Origin: a virus
Direction: 5' to 3' (one strand)
IMG/VR virus record: IMGVR_UViG_3300010157_000068
Location: 1 to 60,628 of that record
DNA length: 60,628 nucleotides
The notes under the pieces are model-generated. The model did no database searches and was not told where the DNA came from. It saw only the letters and a list, made by a program, of their open reading frames with translations. Position 1 is the stretch's first letter, and each line of letters begins with the position of its first letter. The translations under genes and the position numbers were made by a program. Below, piece after piece: positions 40,794 through 58,194 of this stretch.

Positions 40794-40796
40794 ATT

Positions 40797-41968: not shown

Positions 41969-41972
41969 ACTT

Positions 41973-42486: not shown

Positions 42487-44885
42487 AATTTAAACTCTTC
42501 GTTATTATGTGTGTCACCCTCCTTAGTGATGAACTTGATCCACCGCCCGTTTCCGTCGCGTCCCTCAAGAGGAGTCACTCCGGTGACGTACACCCCGTAT
42601 GCTATTAGCCACTTGTAGAATAACGTCCTACTGATGGTCATCTTAGCCTTGGGTGCAAAGTCAGGGTTGTCCTGAATAAAGTCAAGGTACAGGTCCTGCT
42701 TGTATAGCAGCTCGTCTAGCCTCATCATCCCGTTATGAGAGTCTCCGCCGACCATCCCACACCACTCTATAAACTCGTGACAGGTCTCGGCAGATAGCTT
42801 ACGAACCTTAAGGTTCACAAACGTGCTCTTGATAAGTCCGGTGTCTAGGTAGGACTTCAGGTTATTCACAACGTAGTTATCGAACCTGCACCACTCCTCC
42901 TCATCCCAGTCATCGAACATCATCCGGCCGAACTCGACAAGCGGAGTGAACTCCTTGCTATAGAACTGCTTAAACTCTAGCTCCCACTTACGTCTCTCGA
43001 AAGAGTTACCCTTACCCCTAACGGCGTAGTTGGTGGTGATGATAATCTTTGGCGACTTTCTAAACGGAAGGTGGAACGCGTCCTTATTCTTCTTCTCAAC
43101 CGTAAGCCCCTCGGTAACAACACTGAACAACCTCTCGAAGTCGAAGTGCTTCTTAACGTCGTCAAAGGACAGGACCTGGGTACCTACGTTAACCGTCTGA
43201 TACGCGAAGGACTTGTCAAAGTTAAATGACTTTCCATCTATAAATATGGTCTTCTTGATCTTAGATATAGCTCTAACGAAGATACCCTTTCCGGTACCTC
43301 CCTCAGGGTTGTCGCTGATCACCTCGTCGTTTAAGATAATGGCCGGACAGTATGCAGGGTTCTTGTACCCGTGCATAAGGAACCCTATCGTGCTCTCCAT
43401 GGACTTGATCCTCTGGTCATCCTCTCCTGATATGTTGGATATAAAGGTCCTGAAGTCGCACTCGGTTACCTCGCATATCGCGAAGTCTCTGTCGATTACC
43501 TGCTCCTTCCATATGTACCCGTCAAGGTCTATGTAGTCTATAATGTCGACACGGTCCTTGGTCACCTTAACCGCACAGTTGTTATAGTACAGGTGAGCCG
43601 TATCGGCCGTATCTTCTACGAAGTACACATCTACAGATCCTAGCATGGATAGGAAGTCCTCCTTAAAGAACCTGGTCTTGTCGGCAAAGTAGTTGTACAC
43701 TGAAAGGTCATCCATGTCCTCAAGGTACGATAGCACGAAGTCCTTTATCTCGTCCTCTGAAGTGTTGTCTATCAGGTTGTTAGTAACCTTAACTAGGTTA
43801 AAACTCTTGCTGTTCTCAGGGTAGAACTTATAGAACCCGTTGTCCTCCAAGAACTCCTTGAATAGGTTATGCACTATACTTACGGCGCCCTTATCGTTCT
43901 TGGTCCAGAACCGCTTTGTGTCGCTATCAATCCTGTCCAGGACTGCGTCGATGACACCCTCCTCAATGTCAGTCATCTCCGCCTTGATCTGCTTGACCGT
44001 GGCGCCGTCCTTGACCTTCTTCTTTAGCTGAGAGACCCTAGCGGTGTCTTCGTAGTACTTGGTGCCGAACTTGCTCACGTGACTGTATGCGGAGTTGATG
44101 GTCATCTTAATCTCAGACATGGGGAAGTCCTTCTGCTCGAACTGACCTATGATGTACTCGGCAAGAGACTTGCTGATTCCGTAGTCGTTAAACGCGGCAG
44201 CCAATATGTACACGTTGTGGTTGCGCTCACCGTCAACCATTCCGTACTTGTTTGTCCACCACTTCATGAGTATGTCAACGATCCTGTTCTCGTTGGTTAT
44301 TGGAATGGTAGGGGCCTCACTTACCCTCTCAATCTCAACGAACTCCTCCTCGTGCATGCGGTCCCACAGCTTAGACTCCTTGTTGATGTAGATATCCTTG
44401 TCGTAAGACTCGTAGCATACCCTTGAGATATTCTTAGACGTGGTGTCAAAGTGAGGTGTGTTAAAGTAGTTCTGAAGCGCGTTGAAGTACTTGACGTGGT
44501 TGTCTACGTCCTGAGGTATCCTTACAAGGACCTTTAGACCGTCCCCGGATGGAGATACAAATACAGCGTACACGTACTCGTCGGCTGCAATAGTAGCCTT
44601 CTCTAACATCATCTGCTTCTTGCTAGAGTATCCGTCAAAGTCTAGACATATAAGGCCGCTGTGCTCGGCTATTGAGTTGTCTAGTCTCTTGGTAAATATT
44701 CCTGAAAAGCATATGGCCGGCAGTGACTTTTTAATCTCGTTGCGCTCGGTCTTATCAGTCTCGGCCTGTATGCGCTCCACTATCTCTCGGCTCGCTCCGA
44801 TTCGTATGCGCTCCAGGACCACGTCTATGTTCCTATAGAACGGGGTGGAGGTGCTACGAATGTCCTTAAATATTGTTATCTTCAT
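42483..44885 (-). CDS. Primase-helicase (VirE-N/primase domain plus SF3 helicase)
   Basis: 800 residues. Residues ~60-130 (SGLICLDFDGY.., VFVSPSGDGLKVLVRI) match the VirE N-terminal/BT4734-type domain typical of Bacteroidota mobile elements, an archaeo-eukaryotic primase relative. Around residue 220 a PriCT-like helical region follows (..NHNVYILAAAFNDYGIS..). Near residue 528 is a P-loop (NPEGGTGKGIF), with a downstream acidic strand (VLSFDDVKK) and ..SPKIIITTNYAV, as in superfamily 3 helicases. It should prime and unwind DNA at the fork. As no polymerase is encoded, host polymerase is presumably recruited. Confidence 0.85.
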   Translation of the reverse strand: MKITIFKDIRSTSTPFYRNIDVVLERIRIGASREIVERIQAETDKTERNEIKKSLPAICFSGIFTKRLDNSIAEHSGLICLDFDGYSSKKQMMLEKATIAADEYVYAVFVSPSGDGLKVLVRIPQDVDNHVKYFNALQNYFNTPHFDTTSKNISRVCYESYDKDIYINKESKLWDRMHEEEFVEIERVSEAPTIPITNENRIVDILMKWWTNKYGMVDGERNHNVYILAAAFNDYGISKSLAEYIIGQFEQKDFPMSEIKMTINSAYSHVSKFGTKYYEDTARVSQLKKKVKDGATVKQIKAEMTDIEEGVIDAVLDRIDSDTKRFWTKNDKGAVSIVHNLFKEFLEDNGFYKFYPENSKSFNLVKVTNNLIDNTSEDEIKDFVLSYLEDMDDLSVYNYFADKTRFFKEDFLSMLGSVDVYFVEDTADTAHLYYNNCAVKVTKDRVDIIDYIDLDGYIWKEQVIDRDFAICEVTECDFRTFISNISGEDDQRIKSMESTIGFLMHGYKNPAYCPAIILNDEVISDNPEGGTGKGIFVRAISKIKKTIFIDGKSFNFDKSFAYQTVNVGTQVLSFDDVKKHFDFERLFSVVTEGLTVEKKNKDAFHLPFRKSPKIIITTNYAVRGKGNSFERRKWELEFKQFYSKEFTPLVEFGRMMFDDWDEEEWCRFDNYVVNNLKSYLDTGLIKSTFVNLKVRKLSAETCHEFIEWCGMVGGDSHNGMMRLDELLYKQDLYLDFIQDNPDFAPKAKMTISRTLFYKWLIAYGVYVTGVTPLEGRDGNGRWIKFITKEGDTHNNEEFKF

Positions 44886-45216
44886 GACTAATAAGTTGTT
44901 GTTTGTGTCTAAGTATAAGTCCTAGTATCTCTAAAGCAACTGTGTCAGGAACCCTCACAGTAAGTCCCTCCTCATTTATCTCTGGCTGATCGTCTGAGAT
45001 AACAAACGCACCGGTGGCCGTAGTCGATGTCCACATATAAGGCTGCTGAGAGTTCATCTCGTTAAGTAGGTCGGTCTCGAAGTCCATCGATATCCATACA
45101 GCAGACTTAGACTCTATTGTCTTTTCAGCGGCCTCTTGTACTGCGTCTATGTCGTCCTGAAGGTTGAGTATTCTTTCGTAGGCCTCAACTACCTGCTGCA
45201 TTTTTTTTCGTTCCAT
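44866..45216 (-). CDS. Hypothetical 116-residue protein before the primase-helicase
   Basis: N-terminal helix (MQQVVEAYERILNLQDDIDAV..), beta centre, and C-terminal ..PDTVALEILGLILRHKQQL. No recognised domain. Its 3' end overlaps the primase-helicase start by 20 bases, suggesting coupling. Confidence 0.7.
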   Translation of the reverse strand: MERKKMQQVVEAYERILNLQDDIDAVQEAAEKTIESKSAVWISMDFETDLLNEMNSQQPYMWTSTTATGAFVISDDQPEINEEGLTVRVPDTVALEILGLILRHKQQLISHEDNNI

Positions 45217-45367
45217 ATATGAATTTGTTCTTTTCTTTTAAAACGTTATGACAAAAATTTATCTCGTCCTCGGTGAGCATATTGTAAAATATCTGAAACT
45301 TACCGGTGAACCTCATGTTCTTGATGCAGGACTTCTCGTTAAGGTAGTTCCTATAGTTAAGCATCAT
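45185..45367 (-). CDS. Hypothetical 60-residue protein
   Basis: MMLNYRNYLNEKSCIKNMRF.. then ..MLTEDEINFCHNVLKEKNKF. Helical in the second half. Start overlaps the previous stop (ATGATG near 45364); the 3' end overlaps the next gene by 32 bases. No family recognised. Confidence 0.55.
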   Translation of the reverse strand: MMLNYRNYLNEKSCIKNMRFTGKFQIFYNMLTEDEINFCHNVLKEKNKFIYGTKKNAAGS

Positions 45368-45645
45368 AGCCTGTGTATTACCTGTTCTAGTCTCTCTACC
45401 CTGCCCAACAGGTCTGTGATGTCATTGCTAGCGTTAAGCACTAGCTCTGAGTATCTTCTAATCGTCTGACTCAGCTTAGGGAAGTAGTAGCGCTCCTCGA
45501 ACTTGTAGCCCTCGGTTCCGCCGTCCTTCTTCTCTCTTACTCGCTGCTCGTGGAATACTAGGACTAGTCCCTTGAACTGATCCGGCTCTAGGTAGTAGTT
45601 ATTGTCTAGAGTTATCTTCTGCTTCTCTTTAAATATTTTGTTCAT
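45364..45645 (-). CDS. Hypothetical 93-residue protein after the SSB terminator
   Basis: MNKIFKEKQKITLDNNYYLE.. then ..VFHEQRVREKKDGG.. and a helical end with LLGRVERLEQVIHRL (coiled coil). Resembles small phage proteins of unknown function near primases. First gene after the terminator at 45657. Confidence 0.68.
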   Translation of the reverse strand: MNKIFKEKQKITLDNNYYLEPDQFKGLVLVFHEQRVREKKDGGTEGYKFEERYYFPKLSQTIRRYSELVLNASNDITDLLGRVERLEQVIHRL

Positions 45646-45656
45646 GTCTAAATAAT

Positions 45657-45685
45657 ATTAAAAACCCTCCGTCTATAGGAGGGTT
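45657..45685 (-). terminator. Rho-independent terminator after the SSB-like gene (minus strand)
   Basis: Eight-base stem AACCCTCC / GGAGGGTT (45663-45670 with 45678-45685) with a seven-base loop. On the - strand it is followed by TTTTTAAT. It splits recombination from replication genes. Confidence 0.85.
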
Positions 45686-45695
45686 ATGGTTAATG

Positions 45696-45986
45696 CTAAA
45701 ACGGCAAGTCATTTTCAGGTTCTGCCGGTGCTTCCTTCGGGGCTGGCTTCTTAGCGGATCCGTCTCCGTCCCATACAACCTTTCCGTTACCCAAGAAGTT
45801 ACGGTTCGCCTTAGACTCGCGCTCCTCTTTTGTTTGACCCTCCCACACAGAGACATTGTTTCCGAACTGATCCTCTTCGTCGTTCACGCTGATTGTAAGG
45901 TTAGCGTAAGTTCCCTTTGCGCCTGAAACAAGTTTACTCTTGTCTAGTTTTGTCACGTCGATACTCAAAGCAATTAACTTTGCCAT
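45696..45986 (-). CDS. ssb: SSB-like single-stranded DNA-binding protein
   Basis: 96 residues. The N-terminal beta-rich part (KLIALSIDVTKLDKSKLVSG.., ANLTISVNDEEDQFGNN) is a short OB-like form found in Bacteroidota phages. A Pro/Ala linker leads to the acidic tail PENDLPF, the classic SSB interaction tip (..DLPF) for helicase, recombination and polymerase partners. It lies between the recombination pair and the primase-helicase. The OB fold itself is inferred. Confidence 0.78.
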   Translation of the reverse strand: MAKLIALSIDVTKLDKSKLVSGAKGTYANLTISVNDEEDQFGNNVSVWEGQTKEERESKANRNFLGNGKVVWDGDGSAKKPAPKEAPAEPENDLPF

Positions 45987-46297
45987 AATAAAATAATTTA
46001 ATGTTTCGCTTACTCTATTACACAGTTTTCAGCTACCCTGTTTATTTTAAAAACCAAACACATCCACCAAGATTGGAATAAATTTATTGACTTTGGTGAA
46101 CTTATCTGTTTACTCCTAATCCTCAATATTTTTACCATACTCAACAAAAATAACACTTCTTGGGAGTGTTTACAATACGCTAAAATAGTCCTTGATACTT
46201 GGTCTACCCTTTAGCTTCGAGCATCCTATATTGTATTCGTTGTCTTTCTATGTGTTTGGTTTGTGCATTATTTGCACATCACTCTTTTAATTTCTCA
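45987..46297. other. 311-base gap with no gene, holding a structured RNA candidate
   Basis: No ORF with a reasonable start fits here on either strand. The gap is A/T-rich and contains the inverted-repeat network at 46051-46262 plus a hairpin TGTGCA/TGCACA at 46262-46278. Confidence 0.7.
46051..46262 (-). ncRNA. Candidate multi-branched structured RNA upstream of the SSB-like gene
   Basis: A 13-base perfect inverted repeat (46051-46063 with 46250-46262, AAACCAAACACAT) encloses further perfect pairings: 46065-46070 with 46093-46098, 46152-46157 with 46165-46170, 46172-46177 with 46229-46234, and inside that 46179-46184 with 46210-46215. These are nested and compatible, giving a multi-helix junction. 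It lies between the exonuclease and SSB genes, so on the - strand it would be a leader or an independent RNA. No known family is recognised. Strand is assumed from the flanking genes. Confidence 0.55.
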
Positions 46298-47029
46298 TCA
46301 TAAAGTATCCTGAATAAAGTAGTTGTTAATGTCCTCTGTAGCATTCGCGCTGAAGAACGTGTTATACACGTTCACTGCTCTGGCCACCTTGTCTCGGCCC
46401 GCCATCAAGAACTCCTCGCTAGGCTCAAACACACCTAGCCTGTGGCTCTTCTTGCATATCACATAGAACACAAGGGGTTTTCCAAACAACTGCCCGTAGA
46501 TGTAAGCCTGGCTGTCGTAGTTGTACTTGCGCGCAGACCACTTGAAGTCGTCTATGTCTGATGTGGTCTTGATGTCGATAAGGATCTCATCCGTTACAAT
46601 ATCAGCCTTGCCTTTGAAAGGCAGTCCGAATAACTCTCCGATGGCTGGCTCCTCGTAGATGTTACCCTCCCTGTAGATGTTATCGTAGAAGAAGAAGTTA
46701 CCCTTCATGGTCCCTACCAAAAGATCTAACTCCTGCTGCTCATTTTTAAGAAGCAGGATAGGATTAGATGAGTGTGACACGGCATCCTTGTAGATGTTTG
46801 TGTTACGGGTTGAGGCCTCAACAACCTCAAAGTTTACTAGCTTCTCAGGCTCAAGCATTGACGTGTGCAGGTACGACCCGTGAAGCATCGGTAGGGTCGG
46901 CTCCTCTCGGACCTTAAACATCTTAGGGTTCTTTAACAGCGTTCCTATGTCGCTGTTGCTGATGTACTTACTACCGTACTCGCCGTAGTAGTTAAAGTCA
47001 TTTCTTAGTGTGTCAATTACGTTCTCCAT
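46298..47029 (-). CDS. PD-(D/E)XK recombination exonuclease
   Basis: 243 residues. GKADIV (residue ~143) followed by EILIDIKTT (~152) is the PD-(D/E)XK core, then a KWSARKYNYDSQAYIY helix with the Q..Y of RecE/lambda-Exo-like and DUF3799-type nucleases. The N-terminal ..YISNSDIGTLLKNP.. and LHGSYLHTSMLEP match phage exonucleases that resect DNA ends. It pairs with the annealase gene one base upstream, forming a Red-type module. Confidence 0.85.
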   Translation of the reverse strand: MENVIDTLRNDFNYYGEYGSKYISNSDIGTLLKNPKMFKVREEPTLPMLHGSYLHTSMLEPEKLVNFEVVEASTRNTNIYKDAVSHSSNPILLLKNEQQELDLLVGTMKGNFFFYDNIYREGNIYEEPAIGELFGLPFKGKADIVTDEILIDIKTTSDIDDFKWSARKYNYDSQAYIYGQLFGKPLVFYVICKKSHRLGVFEPSEEFLMAGRDKVARAVNVYNTFFSANATEDINNYFIQDTL

Positions 47030-47030
47030 A

Positions 47031-47612
47031 CTACTTCAATAAATCTCCTAAGGCCTTCTTAACGGCAGTGGATAGGTTATACTTCACTGATAAATTCTTG
47101 ACGATCGTGTTCAGGTCCATCTTGGACTTGTTGGCGGTAACGTAGTTAACCACTCCTGCCCAGTTCGTGTCGTCAACCTTAAGGTCAATCTTTGTGGAAG
47201 GGACTGGCTTGGTGGCCTTTGCCGTGTCAATAGAGTCCTCTCCACTCCACAAATTTAGTCCAAGGCCGTGCATCGCTATCGCCTTAGTTGTTGATCTTTG
47301 AATCGTTTTATTAACATCCATCGACGTGATAGCATCAATTGATATCGACTTGTTGTTGTAGCTCATGATCGGAAGGTAGTCGATATGCTCTAGGCCGTCT
47401 ATGTTTACCCCGACCTTTACATAGGCGCTCTTGCCGTCGTTGAAGTAGTTAAGGCCTGTGTGAGGGTCCTCGTATACTGTTCGGTTAAGTGACGGGTATA
47501 ATGCCTTGGCGCTGCCCCACGCGTTTGACCAGCTTAGGTAGTCCTGGCCGCCCTTCTTCTCTATCTTAGACTTGATGTCTACCTCTGATAACTTCTTGAA
47601 TGTGTTCTCCAT
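47031..47612 (-). CDS. Sak3-like single-strand annealing protein (DUF1071)
   Basis: 193 residues. The start ..KIEKKGGQDYLSWSNAWGSA and later ..RSTTKAIAMHGLGLNLWSGE are typical of the DUF1071/Sak3 family, which anneals complementary single strands. With the exonuclease downstream and an SSB-like gene it completes a recombination set. A run of five TTTA units lies in its ribosome-binding region. Confidence 0.83.
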   Translation of the reverse strand: MENTFKKLSEVDIKSKIEKKGGQDYLSWSNAWGSAKALYPSLNRTVYEDPHTGLNYFNDGKSAYVKVGVNIDGLEHIDYLPIMSYNNKSISIDAITSMDVNKTIQRSTTKAIAMHGLGLNLWSGEDSIDTAKATKPVPSTKIDLKVDDTNWAGVVNYVTANKSKMDLNTIVKNLSVKYNLSTAVKKALGDLLK

Positions 47613-47614
47613 TG

Positions 47615-47634
47615 TTTATTTATTTATTTATTTA
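47615..47634 (-). repeat. (TTTA)5 tandem repeat in the leader of the annealase gene
   Basis: Five perfect TTTA units (TAAA on the - strand). They cover the stop of the upstream 62-residue gene and end two bases before the ATG of the annealase gene. Slippage here would change the spacing upstream of the start, where Bacteroidota use A/T-rich translation signals. Confidence 0.8.
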
Positions 47635-47816
47635 TAGTTATTTTTTTTATCAATCTCCCTCGCCTTATCTACAAACTTGGTCAGGTCAACATGAGAATGG
47701 TACATGGTAACGTACCTTATTTTTGGTGTGTCTGTAAGGTTTCCGTCGTCGTCGAGGTATATCTCTTCCGCGTGCAAGGTCTTACTTATTAGGTACTCTA
47801 GCGCTGACTGCTGCAT
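47628..47816 (-). CDS. Hypothetical 62-residue protein
   Basis: MQQSALEYLISKTLHAEEIY.. then VTMYHSHVDLTKFVDKAREI. No known domain. Its stop is within the TTTA repeat, and its start overlaps the upstream gene by 19 bases. Confidence 0.65.
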   Translation of the reverse strand: MQQSALEYLISKTLHAEEIYLDDDGNLTDTPKIRYVTMYHSHVDLTKFVDKAREIDKKNNYK

Positions 47817-48199
47817 GTTTCTAATTTTAAGATGTTAATTGTTTCTACGAATCTATTAATGACCGTGTCTCTGTACTTTACTAGCGTGTTATACCTTCTT
47901 AGGTTGCTCATGGTCTTTATCTCAGCTGAGATCTTGTCGGACACGTTGTTTAGGGATCGGCTGTTGTTCTTGGTGGCTATCACGCAGCAGCCAACCTTCC
48001 ACCCGTGCCTCTTGAATACTAGGTACTCCTCAGGAGAGATCTCCGAGTAGTAGTCACCGTTAAACTTTGTGTTGAGTATAACGATGTCTCCGGACCGGTT
48101 CTCTATCTTTACCCCTTTAAATATGTAAGACACCGAATGGTCCGTAACAATTCTTGTGCTCGTCTTATCTCTGCTGGCCTGATCAAATACTTTATTCAT
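47798..48199 (-). CDS. Hypothetical 133-residue protein
   Basis: Beta-rich first half (..VSYIFKGVKIENRSGDIVILNTKFNGDYYSEISPEEYLVF) with a ..HGWKVGCCVIAT.. core, then a helical tail with N-R-F-V-E-T-I. Recognised only as a phage hypothetical near recombination genes. G/C-rich relative to the genes upstream. Confidence 0.7.
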   Translation of the reverse strand: MNKVFDQASRDKTSTRIVTDHSVSYIFKGVKIENRSGDIVILNTKFNGDYYSEISPEEYLVFKRHGWKVGCCVIATKNNSRSLNNVSDKISAEIKTMSNLRRYNTLVKYRDTVINRFVETINILKLETCSSQR

Positions 48200-48202
48200 A
48201 AC

Positions 48203-48607
48203 TTATTTCTTTTTAAATTGTTCAAATAATTTATTGATTAAAGCTCCATCAAGCATAATACCATAATGCTTTCCATATTCTCCAAAAGCATTGTAAAGAA
48301 TCTCTCCAACTTCTTCCTCACTATACATTCTTTTAGCTTTCCATTCAGCACCATCTACTACACCTGCTTTGTATGCTAATTGTAATTCTTCTGAGTGACC
48401 ATATAGTAAATCATTGTTTTCATGAATTATGTATAATTTTTCACCAATTTCTTCAAGTGTTTCTTGTTTAGGTAAAGACTTGTAAGCCATTTCAGCGTCT
48501 AAATGCATACATTTTTGAATTGTTTTTGATTGACCAATAGCGTAATCAGAAATTATATCTCCTGTGCTTTTTGGGTATTCTTGTTTAGGTTCTTCTTCTT
48601 TCTTCAT
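48203..48607 (-). CDS. Hypothetical flavobacterial-phage protein, 134 residues
   Basis: Acidic, helical protein. The C-terminal MYSEEEVGEILYNAFGEYGK.. and NKLFEQFKKK segment is a recurrent module at the ends of small hypothetical proteins in flavobacterial phages and prophages. First of a visibly more A/T-rich block (48203-49974), suggesting recent exchange. Function unknown. Confidence 0.68.
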   Translation of the reverse strand: MKKEEEPKQEYPKSTGDIISDYAIGQSKTIQKCMHLDAEMAYKSLPKQETLEEIGEKLYIIHENNDLLYGHSEELQLAYKAGVVDGAEWKAKRMYSEEEVGEILYNAFGEYGKHYGIMLDGALINKLFEQFKKK

Positions 48608-48610
48608 AAT

Positions 48611-48880
48611 TTACATTTTCAAAAGTTCGTCTTTTATTTGGTTTAGATACACTAATTTTACAACAATATCGTGATTATAAATAATTCTTAAAACTTCCTC
48701 CAACAACTCAATCTCTCGGTTGATTGATATTAGTGCGCATTGTGCCTTATGTCCTTGATTCATAGAAACAGGAAGTCCTTTAGAGTCTTTATTTTTACCT
48801 CCTAGTTTGTAATAATAAATTACGTTATCGTATTCTTTAATCCTTCTCTCCGCTTCTTGTCTTGCTTGTTCTTGTGTCAT
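48611..48880 (-). CDS. Hypothetical 89-residue helical protein
   Basis: MTQEQARQEAERRIKEYDNV.. then ..QCALISINREIELLEEVLRI; mostly helix/coiled coil. A common small protein type in flavobacterial phages without assigned function. Confidence 0.68.
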   Translation of the reverse strand: MTQEQARQEAERRIKEYDNVIYYYKLGGKNKDSKGLPVSMNQGHKAQCALISINREIELLEEVLRIIYNHDIVVKLVYLNQIKDELLKM

Positions 48881-49104
48881 AACTTCTCCTTAAATTTTGT
48901 TAGTAATTGGTCGATGTCCTCAACTGCAACAGCAGTATTAAAATTATCTACATCATATTTTTTACTCTTAACCTCCTCCGCAAATGCTTCTAGTAGGTAG
49001 TTGGAGTAGGCTTGTGCAAAAGCTAAATCATCATCTGTTACCCAACAAATAGCATTTTGTTTATCACTCTTAAACCACTCCTTTGATGATAGTATTTTAT
49101 CCAT
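48877..49104 (-). CDS. Hypothetical 75-residue protein
   Basis: MDKILSSKEWFKSDKQNAIC.. then ..LLEAFAEEVKSKK. and a C-terminal VEDIDQLLTKFKEKL, similar in style to the ends of the neighbouring accessory proteins. Unknown function. Overlaps both neighbours. Confidence 0.65.
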   Translation of the reverse strand: MDKILSSKEWFKSDKQNAICWVTDDDLAFAQAYSNYLLEAFAEEVKSKKYDVDNFNTAVAVEDIDQLLTKFKEKL

Positions 49105-49267
49105 TGTTATCGTTAATAATAGTGTTTAAATGAAACATTGAGTGTAAAAATGCTAGTGCAAAAGCCAATACAGATAATTTATTTAAATCATTGTAGAAAG
49201 CTATTACTCCACAAGCTAAACAAATAGCGCATCTTATTAAGTATATGTTTTTTAATATTTTATCCAT
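49097..49267 (-). CDS. Small membrane protein, 56 residues
   Basis: - strand frame MDKILKNIYLIRCAICLACG.. to ..LNTIINDNNG, with two hydrophobic stretches (about residues 9-23 and 33-46). The first four residues MDKIL repeat those of the downstream gene, whose start it overlaps by eight bases. Role unknown. Confidence 0.6.
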   Translation of the reverse strand: MDKILKNIYLIRCAICLACGVIAFYNDLNKLSVLAFALAFLHSMFHLNTIINDNNG

Positions 49268-49763
49268 TGTGTTTAGTTATTAGTTGTTTAAGTTCTTTTA
49301 TTATTGGATTTGAAAAACTATACTGTTGGTCGTTATAAAAATAATCATAAGCATTTTCTAATCCTTTAACCAACTCCTCCTTATCCCTTCTCAACTCCTC
49401 TATTGTTTTATCTCTTTGTTGTAAAGCATTTTCACAATGTTTAAGAAGTTTTTTTGTTTTTTCTAAATCAATATTACTAAGTTCTAAGTCTAACTTTGAC
49501 ATATCTATTTCTTTCTGTGCGTGGTTGTAGGCTTCCTCTAACTGTGTAATGTATCTAAGAACACTAATTGGTGTTGTCATATAATTTTCTTGACAATTTT
49601 CTTTGTAATAATTAATGTCTTTCTCAATAGTCTGTTTAGGTTTAACCTCAATATAATGCCCTTCACTTCCACAAGGACTATCGCAATTTACACAACGATA
49701 AAACTTATTAGCTTCACCGCAAAATATTTCTTTAGGTTGGTCTTGTGGGATGTTCTTATTCAT
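49260..49763 (-). CDS. Coiled-coil protein with Cys-rich start
   Basis: 167 residues from the ATG at 49763, chosen because it overlaps the previous stop by eight bases; the frame is open upstream without support. The N-terminus has C-G-E-A..YRCVNCDSPCGSEGHY, a zinc-knuckle-like cluster, followed by a long coiled coil (LEEAYNHAQKEIDMSKLDLE..). A common flavobacterial-phage type. Function unknown. Confidence 0.65.
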   Translation of the reverse strand: MNKNIPQDQPKEIFCGEANKFYRCVNCDSPCGSEGHYIEVKPKQTIEKDINYYKENCQENYMTTPISVLRYITQLEEAYNHAQKEIDMSKLDLELSNIDLEKTKKLLKHCENALQQRDKTIEELRRDKEELVKGLENAYDYFYNDQQYSFSNPIIKELKQLITKHNG

Positions 49764-49974
49764 AATATTTGTCTTTAAAGATTTGTAATAGTTCGGTGGA
49801 AGTATATAATACTCCTTTATAATCAAACTTATCATCCCAACAATCATAGTCGGTGTTATTTTTTGCAAAATTCGCAAACTTAACAGCAAAATCATCCGCT
49901 ATTTGTTCGCACTTATCCGCTTTGTCAAAATAGTCTAAAATTATAGCTTCAAACTTCTCTCTTAACTTACTCAT
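49756..49974 (-). CDS. Hypothetical 72-residue protein
   Basis: MSKLREKFEAIILDYFDKAD.. then ..YDCWDDKFDYKGVLYTSTEL. Acidic and helical. Last gene of the A/T-rich accessory block. Unknown function. Confidence 0.65.
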   Translation of the reverse strand: MSKLREKFEAIILDYFDKADKCEQIADDFAVKFANFAKNNTDYDCWDDKFDYKGVLYTSTELLQIFKDKYYE

Positions 49975-50147
49975 AACTCTATTATTAAAGGATTGCTTAC
50001 CGTATTAATATGGTTATTGTAGACCCTCTGATAGGCCTCAGACATTCTGCTCGCGTCCGCGTAGTGGATCGTCTTGACCCTGAGTCTCATCCACCGATCG
50101 AACCTATTCATCTCTCTGGCTGCCGCCTTGCTCTTTGTATCTTTCAT
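49971..50147 (-). CDS. Small basic protein, 58 residues
   Basis: - strand frame from ATG 50147: MKDTKSKAAAREMNRFDRWM, then RLRVKTIHYADASRMSEAYQ, ending ..NPLIIEL. The stop overlaps the next ATG (ATGA). Arg-rich; may bind nucleic acid. No family is recognised. Confidence 0.65.
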   Translation of the reverse strand: MKDTKSKAAAREMNRFDRWMRLRVKTIHYADASRMSEAYQRVYNNHINTVSNPLIIEL

Positions 50148-50271
50148 TTTTGTATATCTTTATGTAATAATTTAGTAACTCCTTGTCTGTCATGTAAGCG
50201 AAGTCTATAGTCCGCGTGTGCCCGTAGAACATTATCATCTCTAAAACGGTGCTCCTTCTGTTAAATTGCAT
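50104..50271 (-). CDS. Small phage protein of the MNRRTT-type, 55 residues
   Basis: MQFNRRSTVLEMIMFYGHTR, then TIDFAYMTDKELLNYYIKIY.. . I recognise this short pattern (RR.T.LEMI.FYGHTR.I....M.D.EL) from crAss-like phages, always without function. It overlaps the next gene by 44 bases in another frame. Confidence 0.7.
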   Translation of the reverse strand: MQFNRRSTVLEMIMFYGHTRTIDFAYMTDKELLNYYIKIYKNERYKEQGGSQRDE

Positions 50272-50315
50272 GCTCTAGCTTCTTAGTGCCTGACTTGACT
50301 GTCTAGCAAGTTCCA

Positions 50316-50507
50316 TTAGCAGTTTCTTAATAAATGACATATCGTCTTGTGTTTTAGGTTGTTATTAACTACGTTTTTAGCCTCCGACCATGGAAGGTCA
50401 CACTCATCAGCGGTCATCCTTACCAAGGCACCGTACACCCTTTGGCGTCTCTTCTCCGTCTGAAGGAACGCCCTGATGTCTACTCTGTTTACTATCCTAG
50501 GTCTCAT
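50316..50507 (-). CDS. Hypothetical basic protein, 63 residues
   Basis: MRPRIVNRVDIRAFLQTEKR.., then VRMTADECDLPWSEAKNVV. The start overlaps the upstream stop (ATGA). Helical and Arg-rich; nucleic acid binding is possible. Unknown function. Confidence 0.6.
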   Translation of the reverse strand: MRPRIVNRVDIRAFLQTEKRRQRVYGALVRMTADECDLPWSEAKNVVNNNLKHKTICHLLRNC

Positions 50508-50650
50508 GCCTGTATTGGGTTAGATGTTGCCTCGCTCCATCCTGCCAACTCTTTCCAAATTCGGAAGAGTTTTTTAGAGCGTATTATGTCTCTCTCGGTG
50601 ATAACGGACTTATTAAATATGTCCACTATCTGTTGCTCAATTTTTTTCAT
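50504..50650 (-). CDS. Small helical protein, 48 residues
   Basis: - strand frame MKKIEQQIVDIFNKSVITER, then DIIRSKKLFRIWKELAGWSE, ending ..NPIQA. It is coupled on both sides by overlaps (14 bases upstream, ATGA downstream). Unknown function. Confidence 0.6.
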   Translation of the reverse strand: MKKIEQQIVDIFNKSVITERDIIRSKKLFRIWKELAGWSEATSNPIQA

Positions 50651-51428
50651 CGCTCAATATTTTAATTAGTTCCTCCTTACCGTATTTTAATGAAAGTTGC
50701 TCGATGTCGGAGGGTAGGGTGTTTTCGATTTTTTCTGCCCAAGTGCCGTTTTTAAAAATTAAACATCCTCCCTTATATAGTTCATTATCTTTAAAATAAA
50801 ATGTAGTTATATCTCCGTTTAAATCTACAATTCTACCATCTGCTAAAGAGTGAACTTTCACCCCCTTTTTAAACCCTCTCTTAACCGCTTCTTTAGTCAA
50901 TGCTTCTTCTACTTCTTGGGGGGTGGCTAGAGTCCATTCTGAAATAGGGTATCCACTTAATCCATTTTCTCTATATTTATCAAACCAAAATCCACAACTA
51001 TCAATTCCATATCCTAATCCTTCGTTATAAGCCACAGTTCCTACGCTATTTTTATACCACTTCCCAACCTCCAAACTAGGCTTTCTAAACTCTTGAAACC
51101 ACTCCTCTATTTTCTCCTTGCACTCATTTAACGAGTGCAGATAGGTTATTTGTTTTTTGGTTAGGGTGTAGGTTGGTTCGATACCACAGGCATTTAAAAA
51201 TATCTGCTCGTCCCATTCCTCGTATCGTTTTTCTAAATCAAGTACCGAAATATCAAGTTCGGAACCGTTACCAATACAAGGACAGTACTTTCCAACCCAA
51301 CTATTACATAGATAAGGGTGGTACTCCAATCCCCAAACATTTTTTGTAATTCCTACCAACTTAGGCTCAATAGCCGACCACTGCTCTTTATTGCATTTCA
51401 TCGCAATAGGCGTAAATTTTGTTTTCAT
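50637..51428 (-). CDS. Hypothetical flavobacterial-phage protein, 263 residues
   Basis: Mixed protein. It includes ..TLTKKQITYLHSLNECKEKI, a KPSLEVGKWYKN.. segment and ..KRGFKKGVKVHSLADGRIV.., modules that recur in hypothetical proteins of flavobacterial phages. A/T-rich and likely exchanged as a unit. No catalytic motif seen. Confidence 0.7.
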   Translation of the reverse strand: MKTKFTPIAMKCNKEQWSAIEPKLVGITKNVWGLEYHPYLCNSWVGKYCPCIGNGSELDISVLDLEKRYEEWDEQIFLNACGIEPTYTLTKKQITYLHSLNECKEKIEEWFQEFRKPSLEVGKWYKNSVGTVAYNEGLGYGIDSCGFWFDKYRENGLSGYPISEWTLATPQEVEEALTKEAVKRGFKKGVKVHSLADGRIVDLNGDITTFYFKDNELYKGGCLIFKNGTWAEKIENTLPSDIEQLSLKYGKEELIKILSDEKN

Positions 51429-51769
51429 CTGTTAAATAATTGAATTAGGCATCCGCTTGTAGGGGCGCCTGAGTTAAACGTGTATGTTAATTTATTGTCC
51501 CTAGTCATTCCGATAACTATAGGCTTGGCTTGCTCGTTCTGAACCCTCATCTCAAAGTACCCTCGGTCCAACATCTTAACCTCTGACACTCTGTCGGTGG
51601 TTGATAGCAACGTGTCAGGTATAGAGCCGTTAAGGTCGATAAGGGTGAGTCTGTCACCCGATTGTAGGTGGATAGATGTTGTTTTTAGGTCTTCTGAGAG
51701 ACTTTCTTGCTCGGAAGGTGATGAGCACCCGTACACTAGTACAAGTGCGCTTAGGATTAGTTTTTTCAT
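51425..51769 (-). CDS. Phage-encoded lipoprotein
   Basis: 114 residues. The signal KKLILSALVLVYGC has Cys15 after V-Y-G, a near-standard lipobox, so it should be lipidated. The mature part is a small beta-rich domain (IHLQSGDRLTLIDLNGS..). It is encoded in the early region, not with lysis genes. Phage early lipoproteins of this size often block the phage's own receptor (superinfection exclusion, as T5 Llp); that role is inferred here. Confidence 0.75.
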   Translation of the reverse strand: MKKLILSALVLVYGCSSPSEQESLSEDLKTTSIHLQSGDRLTLIDLNGSIPDTLLSTTDRVSEVKMLDRGYFEMRVQNEQAKPIVIGMTRDNKLTYTFNSGAPTSGCLIQLFNR

Positions 51770-51772
51770 GTC

Positions 51773-51934
51773 TTAATGATTTAAGTTATAAAATAAGGTC
51801 CACCCTATGCATGTTAGTATCATGCATATGAATCTAAGTTGTTTGTTGTCGCCTGACTTGTTTATAAAGTCTACTGCCGATGACTCTGCATAGGACAGTG
51901 TAAAAAATAAAGATAAAAAGAATATAGCCGTCAT
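51773..51934 (-). CDS. Small exported or membrane protein, 53 residues
   Basis: MTAIFFLSLFFTLSYAESSA, then a short polar part and a second hydrophobic stretch (FICMILTCIGWTLFYN). It could be a two-helix membrane protein. It lies just before the lipoprotein gene, so the pair may act at the envelope. Confidence 0.6.
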   Translation of the reverse strand: MTAIFFLSLFFTLSYAESSAVDFINKSGDNKQLRFICMILTCIGWTLFYNLNH

Positions 51935-51944
51935 GATTATTTGT

Positions 51945-52220
51945 CTAGTTTAATTGTTCTATTTTAAATTGTTCTGAAAGTTCCTTGCATAGGTCTTCGG
52001 CAAACTTGTAGTCAAGTTTTCGGAATCGATTCTGACCATAGTGAGGTATTGCCTTTTCTCCATCCGCGCATATAACGAATGGTACCTCTTCAATAAATAC
52101 GTTTCCCGATTCTCGGATGCCTTTTATTGTGTACATACTTCCTTTTACTAAGGACTTTGTTTTTGAGTAGTCTCCGACTGCGTCGCAAATACATACTACT
52201 TTTTCTCCTACTTTAAACAT
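51945..52220 (-). CDS. SH3/KOW-like small phage protein, 91 residues
   Basis: FKVGEKVVCICDAVGD.., then ..LVKGSMYTIKGIRESGNVFI. and ..NRFRKLD. This is a widespread phage hypothetical of the 'G..V.C.......L..G..Y.I' type with a small beta barrel. The role is unknown, possibly binding RNA polymerase or nucleic acid. Confidence 0.72.
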   Translation of the reverse strand: MFKVGEKVVCICDAVGDYSKTKSLVKGSMYTIKGIRESGNVFIEEVPFVICADGEKAIPHYGQNRFRKLDYKFAEDLCKELSEQFKIEQLN

Positions 52221-52222
52221 GA

Positions 52223-52630
52223 TTATTTGTTTTGATTGTTATACCATCTGATGAATTTTACGCACGCGTTATAAACTGCATTAATTTTAATATCTGAGAA
52301 TTCAGATGACACGATACTGCTCTTAGTAACCAAGCACTGATAATCTCCGTCCTCTTGTTTGTTGATTTCGACTGAGTAATTTAGGTCCTCAATCTTCTCT
52401 ACCACATCCATTAACCAATTCCAATCTGAACTATACAAATCATCTTCCCATGACTGAGGGTTTTCGTGACCCATAAACTCAGCAATCATCTCGTTGTTCT
52501 CCTCGGTAGTAGGCTCTATGTATAGGCTCCGCTTGGCGCCCTCTAGAGTGCTATAGTCTTGGCTTTCGAATGACTCGTTTCCCTCCTGAATGACTTGTCT
52601 GTTGCCTTTTTTGTATACTACTGTGCGCAT
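52223..52630 (-). CDS. Hypothetical acidic protein, 135 residues
   Basis: Starts at ATG 52630 (MRTVVYKKGNRQVIQEGNES), chosen because it overlaps the previous stop; the frame is open further upstream without support. Acidic centre with Trp (..SSDWNWLMDVVEKIEDLNYS). Unknown function. Confidence 0.65.
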   Translation of the reverse strand: MRTVVYKKGNRQVIQEGNESFESQDYSTLEGAKRSLYIEPTTEENNEMIAEFMGHENPQSWEDDLYSSDWNWLMDVVEKIEDLNYSVEINKQEDGDYQCLVTKSSIVSSEFSDIKINAVYNACVKFIRWYNNQNK

Positions 52631-52881
52631 AATTCCCATGTGTTTAGTTTGGTTGAACGTGTTATCTCTAGGCGCTCGCATATGAACCGCGCCAACTTGT
52701 TGTTTACTGATTTTTGATCGATGCTCGGTGAGCCTATCACACTCACCACGTCGCGTGGCGACATGCCTAGTACCCGTGTGCAGAACTTGACGTCCTGACC
52801 TAGGTAGTAGATTCTGCCGTATGCCTCCAATGTCCAATCGTGTCCGAAGCCGTATGAGCCTCTTGTTATATTTACCTTCAT
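52618..52881 (-). CDS. Hypothetical 87-residue protein
   Basis: Starts at ATG 52881, coupled to the stop of the upstream gene (ATGA). MKVNITRGSYGFGHDWTLEA.. then a helical C-terminus with ..SPRDVVSVIGSPSIDQKSVN, slightly helix-turn-helix-like. Unknown function. Confidence 0.62.
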   Translation of the reverse strand: MKVNITRGSYGFGHDWTLEAYGRIYYLGQDVKFCTRVLGMSPRDVVSVIGSPSIDQKSVNNKLARFICERLEITRSTKLNTWELCAQ

Positions 52882-54393: not shown

Positions 54394-54773
54394 AATTTTA
54401 GTATTAGTTGATTTGATTTGTATATCATCGCAGTGAGTATGCCTCTAACGTTAGGCACAAAGAAGTTATCCTTGACCACCTTGTTAAGTTCTCTTTTCAC
54501 TACTAGTCTCTCCCATATAGTTTGAAAAGAAGCCAAGGGGTCTATGCAGTCCCAAAGACCGTTCGCGCTTATGTATTCCCTAGCTTCCTTGTATGTTGAG
54601 TAAGGACCCTCGTGTAACGCTAGGCGTACCTCGAAGTCGTGAGTAGACATACCTAATTCCTTAGCTACAATCTCTGTAGCTTTGTATATCAATTCCTGAG
54701 TCTCGTCAGAGTAGAACCTACCCTCGCTTTGCAGTCTGTCTAAGACATCTTCTACTATTTTTAGTGCTCTCAT
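54390..54773 (-). CDS. Hypothetical helical protein, 127 residues
   Basis: ALKIVEDVLDRLQSEGRFYS, then ..KATEIVAKELGMSTHDFEVR.. . Mostly helical. No known family. Coupled upstream to the membrane peptide and downstream to the KYARKCS protein by ATGA overlaps. Confidence 0.68.
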   Translation of the reverse strand: MRALKIVEDVLDRLQSEGRFYSDETQELIYKATEIVAKELGMSTHDFEVRLALHEGPYSTYKEAREYISANGLWDCIDPLASFQTIWERLVVKRELNKVVKDNFFVPNVRGILTAMIYKSNQLILKL

Positions 54774-54949
54774 CTTATATCTTTGTTAAATACGTAAATC
54801 ATTACCGCGCTTAGTACCATAATCATCTCTAACCACCCCACAAGGATGATGTTAATGATACTTTTGTCAGGCATCTCAATGCCCAACTTGATTACAAGGA
54901 TGGCGCCTAGTATAAACACCACCATTAGTAGTTTGTCTGTTGTCTTCAT
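54770..54949 (-). CDS. Small two-helix membrane protein, first gene after the ribozyme
   Basis: 59 residues, - strand: MKTTDKLLMVVFILGAILVI, then ..NIILVGWLEMIMVLSAVMIY. Two membrane helices with a short polar loop (KLGIEMPDKS). It begins 65 bases after the hammerhead cut site, so its mRNA would start with a 5'-OH end made by the ribozyme. Role unknown. Confidence 0.7.
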   Translation of the reverse strand: MKTTDKLLMVVFILGAILVIKLGIEMPDKSIINIILVGWLEMIMVLSAVMIYVFNKDIR

Positions 54950-54966
54950 AACTATAATGTTTTAAG

Positions 54967-55021
54967 TAACTGTTTCGTCATTTGTGACTCATCAGTCAGG
55001 GCACACACCCTGATACAGTTA
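54967..55021 (-). ncRNA. Type III hammerhead ribozyme
   Basis: All core parts are present on the - strand, in order: stem III 5' strand TAACTG (55021-55016); cleavage triplet G-U-A, cut after 55014; stem I TCAGGG, loop TGTGTG, CCCTGA (55013-54996); conserved CTGATGA (54995-54989); stem II GTCA, loop CAAA, TGAC (54988-54977); conserved GAAA (54976-54973); stem III 3' strand CAGTTA (54972-54967). Every pair is Watson-Crick. Stem III is the open stem, making it type III. Loops I and II could make the usual tertiary contact. It should cut its transcript between 55014 and 55013. Confidence 0.93.
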
Positions 55022-55279
55022 ACGACCTATGCCTATGTAGTTGGCAGTATCGTAGCTTCGGACCTAAAGGATTACTTTGACCTCTTATTCCTGAGTAGCT
55101 ACACCCGATGTTATAGTCTGTTCTGACTGCCTCCACTTTATAGGTCTGTGGTACCGACCGAGTTAATGACTGCCTTACTCCGCAGTGGTGATTCTTTTGA
55201 CTAGCACAGTGAACCACCTAAACTATATCGACTTTTTCTTTGGAGTCGTGAACCGTGAGAAGAACGTTGTCCCTTTTGA
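55014..55279 (-). ncRNA. Structured leader RNA whose 3' end is made by the hammerhead
   Basis: On the - strand, perfect compatible helices are P1 55140-55146 with 55024-55030 (GACCTAT/ATAGGTC), P2 55126-55131 with 55043-55048 (GGCAGT/ACTGCC), a three-pair step 55107-55109 with 55049-55051, and P3 55097-55102 with 55052-55057 (GTAGCT/AGCTAC). The 3' side of P2-P3 is 15 consecutive paired bases. Upstream hairpins are 55244-55248 with 55229-55233, and 55213-55217 with 55185-55189. Together with the promoter at 55285 this defines an RNA of about 265 bases after self-cleavage. No known class is matched. Boundaries are inferred. Confidence 0.6.
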
Positions 55280-55284
55280 CACTG

Positions 55285-55292
55285 CAAACATA
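55285..55292 (-). promoter_or_regulatory. Bacteroidota-type -7 element for the ribozyme leader (minus strand)
   Basis: Reads TATGTTTG then CAG on the - strand, fitting TAnnTTTG. It would start transcription near 55279. No clear -33 element. Confidence 0.5.
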
Positions 55293-55332
55293 TGGCGAGT
55301 GTTTCAGTTGACCTAGAAAAAAATGATAAATC

Positions 55333-55367
55333 CGATTAAGTGCACAGTTTTATCGATTAAATGCACA
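55333..55367 (+). repeat. Direct repeat with 21-base spacing (operator or iteron pair)
   Basis: CGATTAAGTGCACA (55333-55346) and CGATTAAATGCACA (55354-55367) differ at one base and are exactly 21 bases apart, two turns of DNA, so a protein pair would bind one face. It lies about 40 bases upstream of the ribozyme promoter. Confidence 0.7.
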
Positions 55368-55454
55368 TCTGATAGAGTAGATTCCTACAAATCGTGTAGA
55401 TATTACTGCTCACAATATGTAACTGATTGATAACGAGATAGTTAATATGTATAG

Positions 55455-55540
55455 TAACTTTGCATATATAGAACGCGTGTGCGTAGGTGACTAACGGGTG
55501 TTAGTTAACTTGCCATCTGTAAGCCTTTAAGCGCTTTTTT
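55455..55540 (+). ncRNA. Possible small RNA with promoter element and terminator-like end
   Basis: TAACTTTG (55455-55462) fits the -7 element. Downstream is a six-pair hairpin ACTAAC-GGGT-GTTAGT (55490-55505), then a weak stem AAGC/GCTT running into six T (55535-55540). This would give an RNA of ~70 bases. The terminator stem is weak and no ORF fits. Confidence 0.35.
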
Positions 55541-55597
55541 CTTACAATTCAATAACAAAACCCTACATATAATACGAATTTCGCATTTTAAAGCTAT

Positions 55598-55810
55598 TTA
55601 AGCGACGATTATGTAATCAGAGGTAGTTAGATACCACCTACCCAGAGATAGTGTCTTAATCGCAAATCCCCAATGAATACGCGGGCTCACGTCGTAGGAA
55701 TATACTGCAGTATAGTTGCAGACTATCAGGCCTTGGCTGCTCCATAGATCTCTGTTATAGTTTACTCTTACCCGTTTGTTGTCGGCTATCCGTTTACAAA
55801 TGGATATCAC
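55598..55810 (-). CDS. Weak ORF, 70 residues, GTG start
   Basis: GTG-started frame on the - strand with ..RVRVNYNRDLWSSQGLIVCN.. and ..SLGRWYLTTSDYIIVA. The composition is protein-like, but no RBS or homologue is recognised and it lies alone in a regulatory region. A 14-base palindrome sits eight bases upstream. May be chance. Confidence 0.3.
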   Translation of the reverse strand: MISICKRIADNKRVRVNYNRDLWSSQGLIVCNYTAVYSYDVSPRIHWGFAIKTLSLGRWYLTTSDYIIVA

Positions 55811-56347: not shown

Positions 56348-57931
56348 ATGAGCAACGAATTATTTTTTAAAGAAGAGGGCCGTCAGAAACTTGTAGATGG
56401 TATCACAAAGATCAGCAGCGCTGTAAAGAGCACCCTAGGCCCTAGGGGGAAGACTGTGCTTATCGAATCACAGAACCACGTGCACGGTATAACTGTGACA
56501 AAGGATGGTGTAACTGTGGCTAAATCAATAACACTTGAGGACCCGGTAGAGAACCTGGCTGTAAAGATGATGAAGGAGGCTGCGGACCGTACGGCGACAA
56601 GCGCAGGAGATGGTACAACAACCGCAATTGTTCTAACAGAGGCAATAGTAAACAAGGGGACCGAGTTTATAACCAGTAGAAATAATCCTACCATGGTCCT
56701 TAGGGAGGTGAACACGATCGTGGACGGCGTTGTAAAGACACTTGAGAAGAAGTCAAAGAAGGTCAGAGGAAAGACCCTAAGAGATGTCGCGTCTATATCC
56801 GCAAACAATGACAAGGAGATAGGGGATATTATCGCTGACGCGTACTCAAAGGTTGGCAAGGACGGCGTTGTGACTGTTGATGACTCCCAGGACGAGAACA
56901 CATACGGAGAGGTGACAAACGGAATCCGGGTGGATAAGGGGTACACGAGCAGGCTATTTGTGAACGACATGAAGAAGGAGGAGTGCATACTAGACAACGT
57001 GTACGTGATGGTCACAGACCAGGAGATAAATAACATGATGTCTATAGAGAACGTCCTAAAGCCGATAGTTCAGGACAAGAAGAAGCTCCTTATAATTGGC
57101 CCGTGTACAAACAACATGATCAACACACTAGCCGCGAACGTAATACATAACGACCTTAAGTTCTGTAACATTCCGCCCCCACAGTTTGGTTACAAGCAGC
57201 AGGAGCTGATGCAGGACATAGCCCTGGCACTTGGAGCCACGTACTTCAGCGAGCAGACCGGAGACGACCTTTCGCTAATGACGCCGGAACACCTGGGACT
57301 AGCCAAGAGAATTATAGTCGGAAGGGACTCTACAGTAATTGTAAGGAATGAGGACGCCAGCGAGGCCGTTAAGGAGAGAGTGGCACAGTTATGGGTTCAG
57401 CACGAGAACTCGTCTAAGAAGGGCGAAAAGGATGCGATTAAGGAGCGCATAGCCTCTCTATCTGGCGGAGTAGGAGTGATACACGTAGGAGGAGGATCGG
57501 GCGTGGAGCAGAAGGAGCGCAAGGACAGGGTCGACGACGCGGTCTGTGCTGTAAGGAGCGCGCTTGAGGAGGGGATCATACCAGGAGGAGGTGTGGCACT
57601 ATACAACGCGGCGTCTGACATCATAGCGTACGCTGACGATAACATGGAGCATATAAGTCACGACCAGTACACGGCGATGCAGATCGTTGGCTGGGCACTT
57701 CAGGCACCCCTGATTCAGATAATGGAGAACGCAGGGCTGGACGCCTACGCGATAATGGCCTCTATCAGCGAAGAAGGGCACGGGTACGATGTAAAGAACG
57801 AGTGCTACGGAGACATGATGGCCATGGGCGTTATTGACCCGTTAAAGGTTACCAAGAACGCTCTGAAGAACGCGACCAGCGTAGCCACGACAATACTTAG
57901 TACGAACGCGATAGTAACAATTAAACGATAG
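56348..57931 (+). CDS. groL: Phage-encoded chaperonin GroEL
   Basis: 527 residues, a full Hsp60. ATP-site motifs are at the E. coli positions: LGPRGK (30-35), TKDGVTVAK (51-59), GDGTTT (87-92), the catalytic Asp near residue 396 in RVDDAV, and IPGGGVAL. The apical domain is diverged (..YTSRLFVNDMKKEECI.., ..MMSIENVLKPIVQDKKKL). The chain ends ..NAIVTIKR with no Gly-Gly-Met tail, which in bacterial GroEL lines the cavity. Phage chaperonins usually fold capsid or tail proteins too demanding for the host machine. It is co-transcribed with its own GroES two bases downstream. G/C-richer than nearby genes. Confidence 0.97.
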   Translation: MSNELFFKEEGRQKLVDGITKISSAVKSTLGPRGKTVLIESQNHVHGITVTKDGVTVAKSITLEDPVENLAVKMMKEAADRTATSAGDGTTTAIVLTEAIVNKGTEFITSRNNPTMVLREVNTIVDGVVKTLEKKSKKVRGKTLRDVASISANNDKEIGDIIADAYSKVGKDGVVTVDDSQDENTYGEVTNGIRVDKGYTSRLFVNDMKKEECILDNVYVMVTDQEINNMMSIENVLKPIVQDKKKLLIIGPCTNNMINTLAANVIHNDLKFCNIPPPQFGYKQQELMQDIALALGATYFSEQTGDDLSLMTPEHLGLAKRIIVGRDSTVIVRNEDASEAVKERVAQLWVQHENSSKKGEKDAIKERIASLSGGVGVIHVGGGSGVEQKERKDRVDDAVCAVRSALEEGIIPGGGVALYNAASDIIAYADDNMEHISHDQYTAMQIVGWALQAPLIQIMENAGLDAYAIMASISEEGHGYDVKNECYGDMMAMGVIDPLKVTKNALKNATSVATTILSTNAIVTIKR

Positions 57932-57933
57932 AC

Positions 57934-58194
57934 ATGCAGCCAATAGGTAAATACATAGTGATAACTCCGATAGAGGAGCAGATAAAGTCGGACGTAACCG
58001 GACTGATAATGTCAGGTTCAGATGCCGCCAAGATGAGGTACAAGAAGGCCGAGATAGTAAGGGTTGGAACGGAGGTCACCGCTGTGAGTGATGGGCAGAC
58101 GATATACTACGACAAGAACGCTGGGTTCAGCATGGTGACACAGGCCGGTACGTACACGGTGATAATGGAGAGGGATGTTATTGTGATTATTTAA
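57934..58194 (+). CDS. groS: Phage-encoded co-chaperonin GroES
   Basis: 86 residues (bacterial GroES ~95-97). It has the strand PIGKYIVITPIEE, a mobile loop with GLIM at 23-26 in place of the GIVL that docks to GroEL, then KKAEIVRVG and a closing strand ..MERDVIVII. The roof hairpin is shortened. Directly behind groEL, it should cap that ring. Independent of the GroES-like tandem protein at 6256. Confidence 0.92.
   Translation: MQPIGKYIVITPIEEQIKSDVTGLIMSGSDAAKMRYKKAEIVRVGTEVTAVSDGQTIYYDKNAGFSMVTQAGTYTVIMERDVIVII

Follow-up and report, generated by a model that had tools for sequence, protein, structure and literature searches.

The haloviruses HF1 and HF2 have an early polycistronic transcript whose first ORF is preceded, at a distance of 13 nt, by a variant hammerhead ribozyme; the 5' end of this transcript maps within 3 nt of the cleavage site (PMC3088659). 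This provides a precedent both for the position and for cutting at such a site. Intergenic hammerheads of prophages have been proposed to cut long phage transcripts, and their cleavage has been shown in vitro and in E. coli (PMC3088659). Theta (HDV-like) ribozymes, which constitute another ribozyme class, are found beside phage tRNAs, with hosts that include Bacteroidota, and were proposed to mature the 3' end of noncoding RNA (PMC10879173).

The locus described here lies in a viral DNA of 60,628 nt (IMG/VR record IMGVR_UViG_3300010157_000068), the whole of which is termed the window. As in HF1 and HF2, a hammerhead stands shortly before the first early ORF; however, the HF1/HF2 element belongs to an archaeal virus and has a variant core with insertions, and is not known to come with a conserved leader RNA. 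The prophage hammerheads flank genes inside operons, whereas that of the window ends a promoter-proximal RNA. The RNA matured by theta ribozymes is a tRNA, not a leader. With rRNA and lambda-type boxA leaders (PMC10250234) the window shares a promoter-proximal boxA-like sequence after a small hairpin, in the boxB-boxA order of rrn; the leader body is unlike those of rRNA leaders and has a ribozyme at its end. In the open-licence papers searched, no hammerhead was found described at the end of a conserved leader RNA of phages. The first-pass annotation, which had located the ribozyme, knew of none described in this setting, a remark that was too strong given the HF1/HF2 hammerhead (PMC3088659). 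The hammerhead itself belongs to a known class, and the leader-plus-hammerhead unit is a new variant. By its placement the ribozyme stands where it could sever a leader RNA from the mRNA, as that annotation had proposed, and the hammerhead is probably an RNA-processing site that frees the leader from the early mRNA.

Architecture of the ribozyme

In the direction of transcription, the control region comprises a Bacteroidota-type promoter, a leader of ~265 nt, the hammerhead, 17 nt and the first gene, with the following features:

55285-55292, minus strand: promoter -7 element TATGTTTG, Bacteroidota TAnnTTTG type (sequence; relatives)
55257-55281, minus strand: small hairpin UGUC-AAAAGG-GACA, then boxA-like GTTCTTCTC (pattern search)
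55187-55218, minus strand: leader hairpin GGUGGUUC/GAAUCACC, covarying with AACGGUUC/GAAUCGUU in L129
55169-55186, minus strand: leader hairpin ACUGC/GCAGU with loop GGAGUAAG, kept in L129 and similar, with GAGUAA, in L128
55047-55156, minus strand: leader core, model R1, three hairpins (covariation in 7 and 22 sequences)
55030-55046, minus strand: hairpin UGCC/GGCA between core and ribozyme (consensus fold of five homologues; one-sided changes only)
54967-55021, minus strand: type III hammerhead ribozyme (RF00008, E=4.8e-9; covariation in all three stems, 10 homologues)
54770-54949, minus strand: first gene after the ribozyme, 59 aa, hydrophobic (ORF list)

The window's terminase is 72% identical to that of podovirus MW202828, 46% to those of 68 Flavobacterium elemo phages (Elemovirus) and 33-43% to those of Cellulophaga, Maribacter and Tenacibaculum phages.

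Read on the minus strand, the hammerhead is UAACUG-UA-UCAGGG-UGUGUG-CCCUGA-CUGAUGA-GUCA-CAAA-UGAC-GAAA-CAGUUA, with six pairs plus U16.1-A15.1 in stem III, six in stem I and four in stem II, Watson-Crick throughout. The core elements CUGAUGA and GAAA are intact and GUA occupies the cut site, in agreement with the type III core and the NUH rule, and cleavage is predicted between A55014 and U55013. Stems I and II are closed by loops and stem III is open, which is the three-helix layout of type III, and the core-adjacent pairs are the expected ones (U-A at 1.1-2.1, G-C at 10.1-11.1 and A-U at 15.1-16.1). The element thus shares with Rfam Hammerhead_3 (RF00008) the core, the three stems, the open stem III and the NUH cut site; it differs in its short loop II, CAAA (CAGAA in most relatives), and in that most members of its subtype stand at the 3' end of a leader RNA. 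The first-pass annotation was exact as to coordinates, strand, stems, core and GUA site, and the covariance-model search it had suggested returned RF00008 at exactly 54967-55021, with 47.4 bits and an E-value of 4.8e-9, computed for 1.1 kb against all Rfam families. A scan at the Rfam gathering score missed the hammerhead of the window by 1.1 bits (47.4 vs 48.5), a score passed by the close relatives L036 and L338 (49.6 bits each); in two elemo records checked the hammerhead scores 36.3 bits (E=7.4e-5). The annotation's 18 bases to the first gene are in fact a spacer of 17 nt to the ATG at 54949.

Across 10 homologues, two-sided changes occur at 10 of 18 pairs and in stems I, II and III alike, with a covariation score of 0.499 against 0.221 +/- 0.032 in shuffles. 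When the window was shuffled 300 times (first order), hammerhead-like arrangements with at least 4/3/3 stem pairs arose 0.013 times per shuffled window and those with 6/4/6 not at all; the real window has exactly one. The hammerhead of L129 is imperfect, as a U-U mismatch replaces the core-adjacent pair at 10.1-11.1, and Perreault et al. treat a mismatch there as ground to reject a hammerhead (PMC3088659). This mismatch adjoining the core, together with the score of the window under the gathering cut-off, could be taken as signs of a chance match or a dead relic, but the low chance expectation, the covariation across the 10 homologues and the single arrangement shared by 60 non-redundant relatives (see below) make that very improbable. 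On this comparative evidence, the element at 54967-55021 is a true hammerhead of type III.

In isolation, the 63-mer adopts the hammerhead structure (z = -2.3). Stem III is absent from the lowest-energy fold computed for the full precursor, with the hammerhead conformation only 1.5 kcal/mol higher, and in a model without tertiary contacts the hammerhead has a probability of ~0.003 in the full precursor of the window. In the precursors of the homologues L124 and L125 this probability is 0.56 and 0.59, respectively, and the hammerhead is the minimum-energy fold in both. Since it is not the energy minimum in the precursor of the window, cutting there may depend on co-transcriptional folding or loop contacts.

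Type III hammerheads are also capable of ligation, and the ribozyme could on that ground serve RNA circularisation, as in retrozymes or viroid-like elements. However, two sites or a tandem template would be required, whereas the window contains a single hammerhead and the complete elemo record a single Rfam match to one, so that circularisation is very improbable.

The leader RNA and its linkage to the ribozyme

The same -7 element precedes the leader in L128, L129, L036 and elemo, and the -33 element is weak in the window. Transcription is predicted to start ~6 nt past the -7 element, near 55279. A search with the pattern TTTGCARTGTCAAAAN{4,8}ACAN{1,16}GTTCYT found only five IMG/VR contigs, three with hammerhead leaders and two with tRNA-like ends. 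A boxA role may be ascribed to this 5' element; compared with the GTTCATTGAAAATATTG of Tenacibaculum rrn, the window has GTTCTTCTC, and L036 and MW202828 match better. An rrn-type boxA pattern of excessive strictness matched none of eight records. In the relative G014, a noncoding stretch before a small gene contains CTCATTGAAATATTG (L294:6575-6591), which is near the host rRNA boxA; there is no hammerhead at that place.

The first gene found no family match in PHROG and Pfam searches and shows no homology to the first genes of relatives. Between 35260 and 52837, every ORF of 150 aa or more lies on the minus strand, the structural genes being on the plus strand, and the minus-strand genes include primase-, helicase- and nuclease-like ones. 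Because of this run and its replication-type genes, the minus-strand genes are presumed to form an early operon, and the placing of the ribozyme in a phage control region ahead of such an operon by the first-pass annotation holds. Elsewhere in the window, the phage encodes a GroEL (527 aa), which together with a small GroES-like ORF adjoins the control region (56348-58194), a 2942-aa protein lies within the structural gene block (25567-34395), and a small protein at 36703-37191 has a DnaA C-terminal-like helix-turn-helix (Pfam Bac_DnaA_C, below cut-off).

The R1 core of the leader contains 23 pairs in four helices. In seven leaders 100% of the pair cells are paired, and six pairs show two-sided changes, five of them in the long third hairpin. 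Among 22 distinct sequences 97.6% of the cells are paired, two-sided changes affect 16 of the 23 pairs, and the covariation score is 0.409 against 0.131 +/- 0.013 when shuffled and at most 0.060 when slid; pairing is favoured by the fitting of this alignment to the model, but so many two-sided changes are not explained by such fitting. Upstream of the core, compensated changes convert CGAC/GUCG of the window to CUAC/GUAG in L129. The strong covariation in the core bears out the long structured leader that had been noticed next to the ribozyme; the leader is probably a regulatory RNA, and its core a candidate new RNA family.

Other identities for the leader were tried and rejected. Against Rfam 15, the leader body gave only chance-level matches besides the hammerhead in 54600-55700 and none in relatives, so that it is not taken for a known RNA, and ARAGORN was negative for tRNA and tmRNA on both window and elemo. 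A 73-aa ORF with a GTG start (54996-55217) was dismissed as coding sequence on account of single-base indels between window and elemo and of the RNA covariation. The CDS that elemo records in GenBank place across the leader core, on the other strand (L122:2918-3058), is likely to be a spurious gene call, as the core covaries.

All 68 GenBank elemo phages match the DNA at 54945-55152 with 79.7% identity, and the match spans the hammerhead and ~130 nt upstream of it; outside these 68, the phage collection gave no match to it. Two leader-only patterns, devoid of ribozyme sequence, retrieved six IMG/VR contigs (L124-L129), and the hammerhead directly follows the leader in all six. Loss of the ribozyme core in homologues that keep its flank had been named beforehand as the observation that would speak against the ribozyme; none of the six displays it. 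Since contigs fetched by the leader alone carry the hammerhead, the two travel together. The terminase lineage is common to the leader-bearing records where tested; the L129 contig (5.6 kb) has no terminase. First genes after the ribozyme are mostly unrelated among phages, with weak similarity only between L127 and L095, and the first genes of L128 and L129 have their homologues in the window ~1 kb further downstream. The ATG, however, is found 14-22 nt past GAAAC in 10 of 10 homologues. Given that the first gene turns over while the distance to the start codon holds, the conserved unit, as far as these relatives indicate, is promoter, leader and ribozyme, with no gene.

Neither hammerhead nor R1 core was found in MW202828, the TerL of which is 72% identical, and the inspected leaders of MW202828, G014, G017 and G019 had no hammerhead at their ends. 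A search of 151 genomes of one Flavobacterium family with R1 gave no match, under stricter filters and with no positive control, and shows little. Matches in Tenacibaculum phage pT24 were rejected as low-complexity. The 73.8-kb contig G001 (L136, L140) contains two terminase genes, 78% and 62% identical to that of the window, and is two genomes joined or a chimera.

Distribution and apparent exchange of leader bodies and 3' ends

Phage contigs often carry hammerheads: the core pattern identified at least 165, and among the matches listed, 96 are followed by an ATG-ORF no more than 80 nt away, 88 of these lying between ORFs. The subtype pattern, defined by the stem II loop CAGAA, matched 91 contigs, and 78 of the subtype contigs and elemo records pass the stem tests, all of them as type III (78/78). 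After removal of near-duplicates and addition of the window, a non-redundant set of 60 remained. An ATG-ORF begins 10-30 nt past GAAAC in 57 of these (median 17), and 49 are preceded by an ORF-free leader. At the 49 leader-type sites, a TAnnTTTG box 100-360 nt before the cut was found 31 times, compared with 13 for the antisense and 6 for the downstream control. The R1 model, built on the first seven leaders, detected 17 more among the subtype loci (E up to 0.05), directly before the ribozyme where positions were compared. Another arrangement is seen at L269, L270, L272 and L275-L277 (relatives G027, G033 and G040), where intergenic type III hammerheads come right after a stable GGGGGUGUCUUCAAAGACACUCCC-like hairpin; hairpin and hammerhead between cistrons are apparently a combined 3'-end protector and cut site.

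A second leader body, different from R1, occurs in L116, L334, L343, L351, L352, L357, L359, L360 and L375. Its strands, read by eye, vary together (GAGUG/CACUC, GAGUAG/CUACUC, GUAUGG/CCAUAC), a probable pseudoknot is contained in it, and it matches no Rfam family. Further non-R1 leaders before subtype hammerheads form a third group of eight plus singletons. Bodies A (R1) and B are found in phages with TerL equally close to that of the window (~77-79% identical). Such apparent exchange among close relatives suggests selection on the RNA itself, and is what one would expect for a trans-acting RNA under diversifying selection.

The 3' end also varies. The 5' element TTTGCARTGTCAAAA..ACA..GTTCYT occurs in L289 and L290 as well, both without a hammerhead. 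The leaders of these two have at their end a tRNA-like fold that includes a canonical T-arm (L289:4918-4973) and lies ~30 nt short of the first ATG. The best Rfam match of this fold is mascRNA/menRNA (E=0.0095, below the Rfam threshold); no call comes from ARAGORN at the standard threshold or from the tRNA model of Rfam. The position is suggestive of a tRNA-like element that replaces the hammerhead as processing module in L289 and L290. Weak permuted-tmRNA calls for L289 and MW202828, obtained only at the 70% threshold, were set aside; in the leader of MW202828 a tRNA-like fold is possible, its 8-nt T-loop being non-canonical.

Possible roles of the cleavage and of the leader

In the proposed mechanism, host RNA polymerase would start near 55279 from the promoter at 55285-55292, and the ribozyme, as soon as the 3' part of stem III has been transcribed, would cut between 55014 and 55013. 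One product would be a leader RNA of ~265 nt with a defined 3' end and a 2',3'-cyclic phosphate, the other a 5'-OH early mRNA that opens with the stem I and stem II hairpins and has 64 nt ahead of the ATG. Cleavage would serve mainly to mature the leader RNA and split it off, and to rid the mRNA of it.

Cleavage might instead serve the mRNA only, by removing a leader that hinders translation and by leaving a hairpin-capped 5'-OH mRNA that resists 5'-end-dependent decay, with the leader as by-product. The constant start-codon spacing (14-22 nt), the A/T-rich stretch upstream of the ATG and the intergenic hammerheads that follow a GGGGGUGUCUUCAAAGACACUCCC-type hairpin in related phages agree with this, as does the proposal by Perreault et al. 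that phage transcripts are processed into shorter mRNAs (PMC3088659). However, the strong covariation of the leader core and its conservation above any first gene are left unexplained, and the reading is distinctly unlikely.

For the leader itself, the two likeliest roles, rated about equal, are a promoter-proximal, antitermination-like elongation element and a trans-acting phage RNA. Elongation control is argued for by the promoter-proximal place of the leader, held despite gene turnover, by the boxA-like stretch and by the long early operon. As cis antitermination, a boxB-boxA-like 5' end and the structured body would load elongation factors, and the ribozyme would uncouple the mRNA from the polymerase-bound leader of an early operon of ~20 kb. 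The leader always directly follows the promoter though the first gene varies, and the window, L128, L129 and elemo promoter 1 each have a GTTCTT-type element no more than ~25 nt from the predicted start. Start-proximal GTTCCTTGAAATATTG in L036 and GTTCTTTGACATAT in MW202828 are comparable, and these elements resemble the rRNA leader GTTCATTGAAAATATTG of a Tenacibaculum genome; the long ORF run (at least 150 aa, 35260-52837) is also entirely on the minus strand. However, the boxA likeness is only partial in the window (GTTCTTCTCACGG), no boxA was seen in L124 or L116, and cutting the leader off could undo the tethering, so that this specific form of elongation control is somewhat unlikely, if less so than a role confined to the mRNA.

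Release of the leader by the hammerhead is the preferred reading for the window; against it count the computed fold of the window's precursor, the mismatch in L129 and the finding of neither hammerhead nor R1 core in MW202828. Beyond it, one may tentatively picture a large, undescribed family of early regulatory RNAs in Bacteroidota phages, in which swappable leader bodies share a common promoter and 5' element and a 3' maturation module, either a hammerhead or a tRNA-like substrate of RNase P type, and which would act as elongation-control or anti-host RNAs once freed. In 2011 hundreds of hammerheads were described from bacterial and prophage DNA, and why phages carry them is a standing question. 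A fixed, lineage-wide site, at the 3' end of a structured RNA and a set distance before the first gene, makes the purpose of the ribozyme testable, and isolates are available in the 68 GenBank elemo phages of Flavobacterium sp. BAL314.
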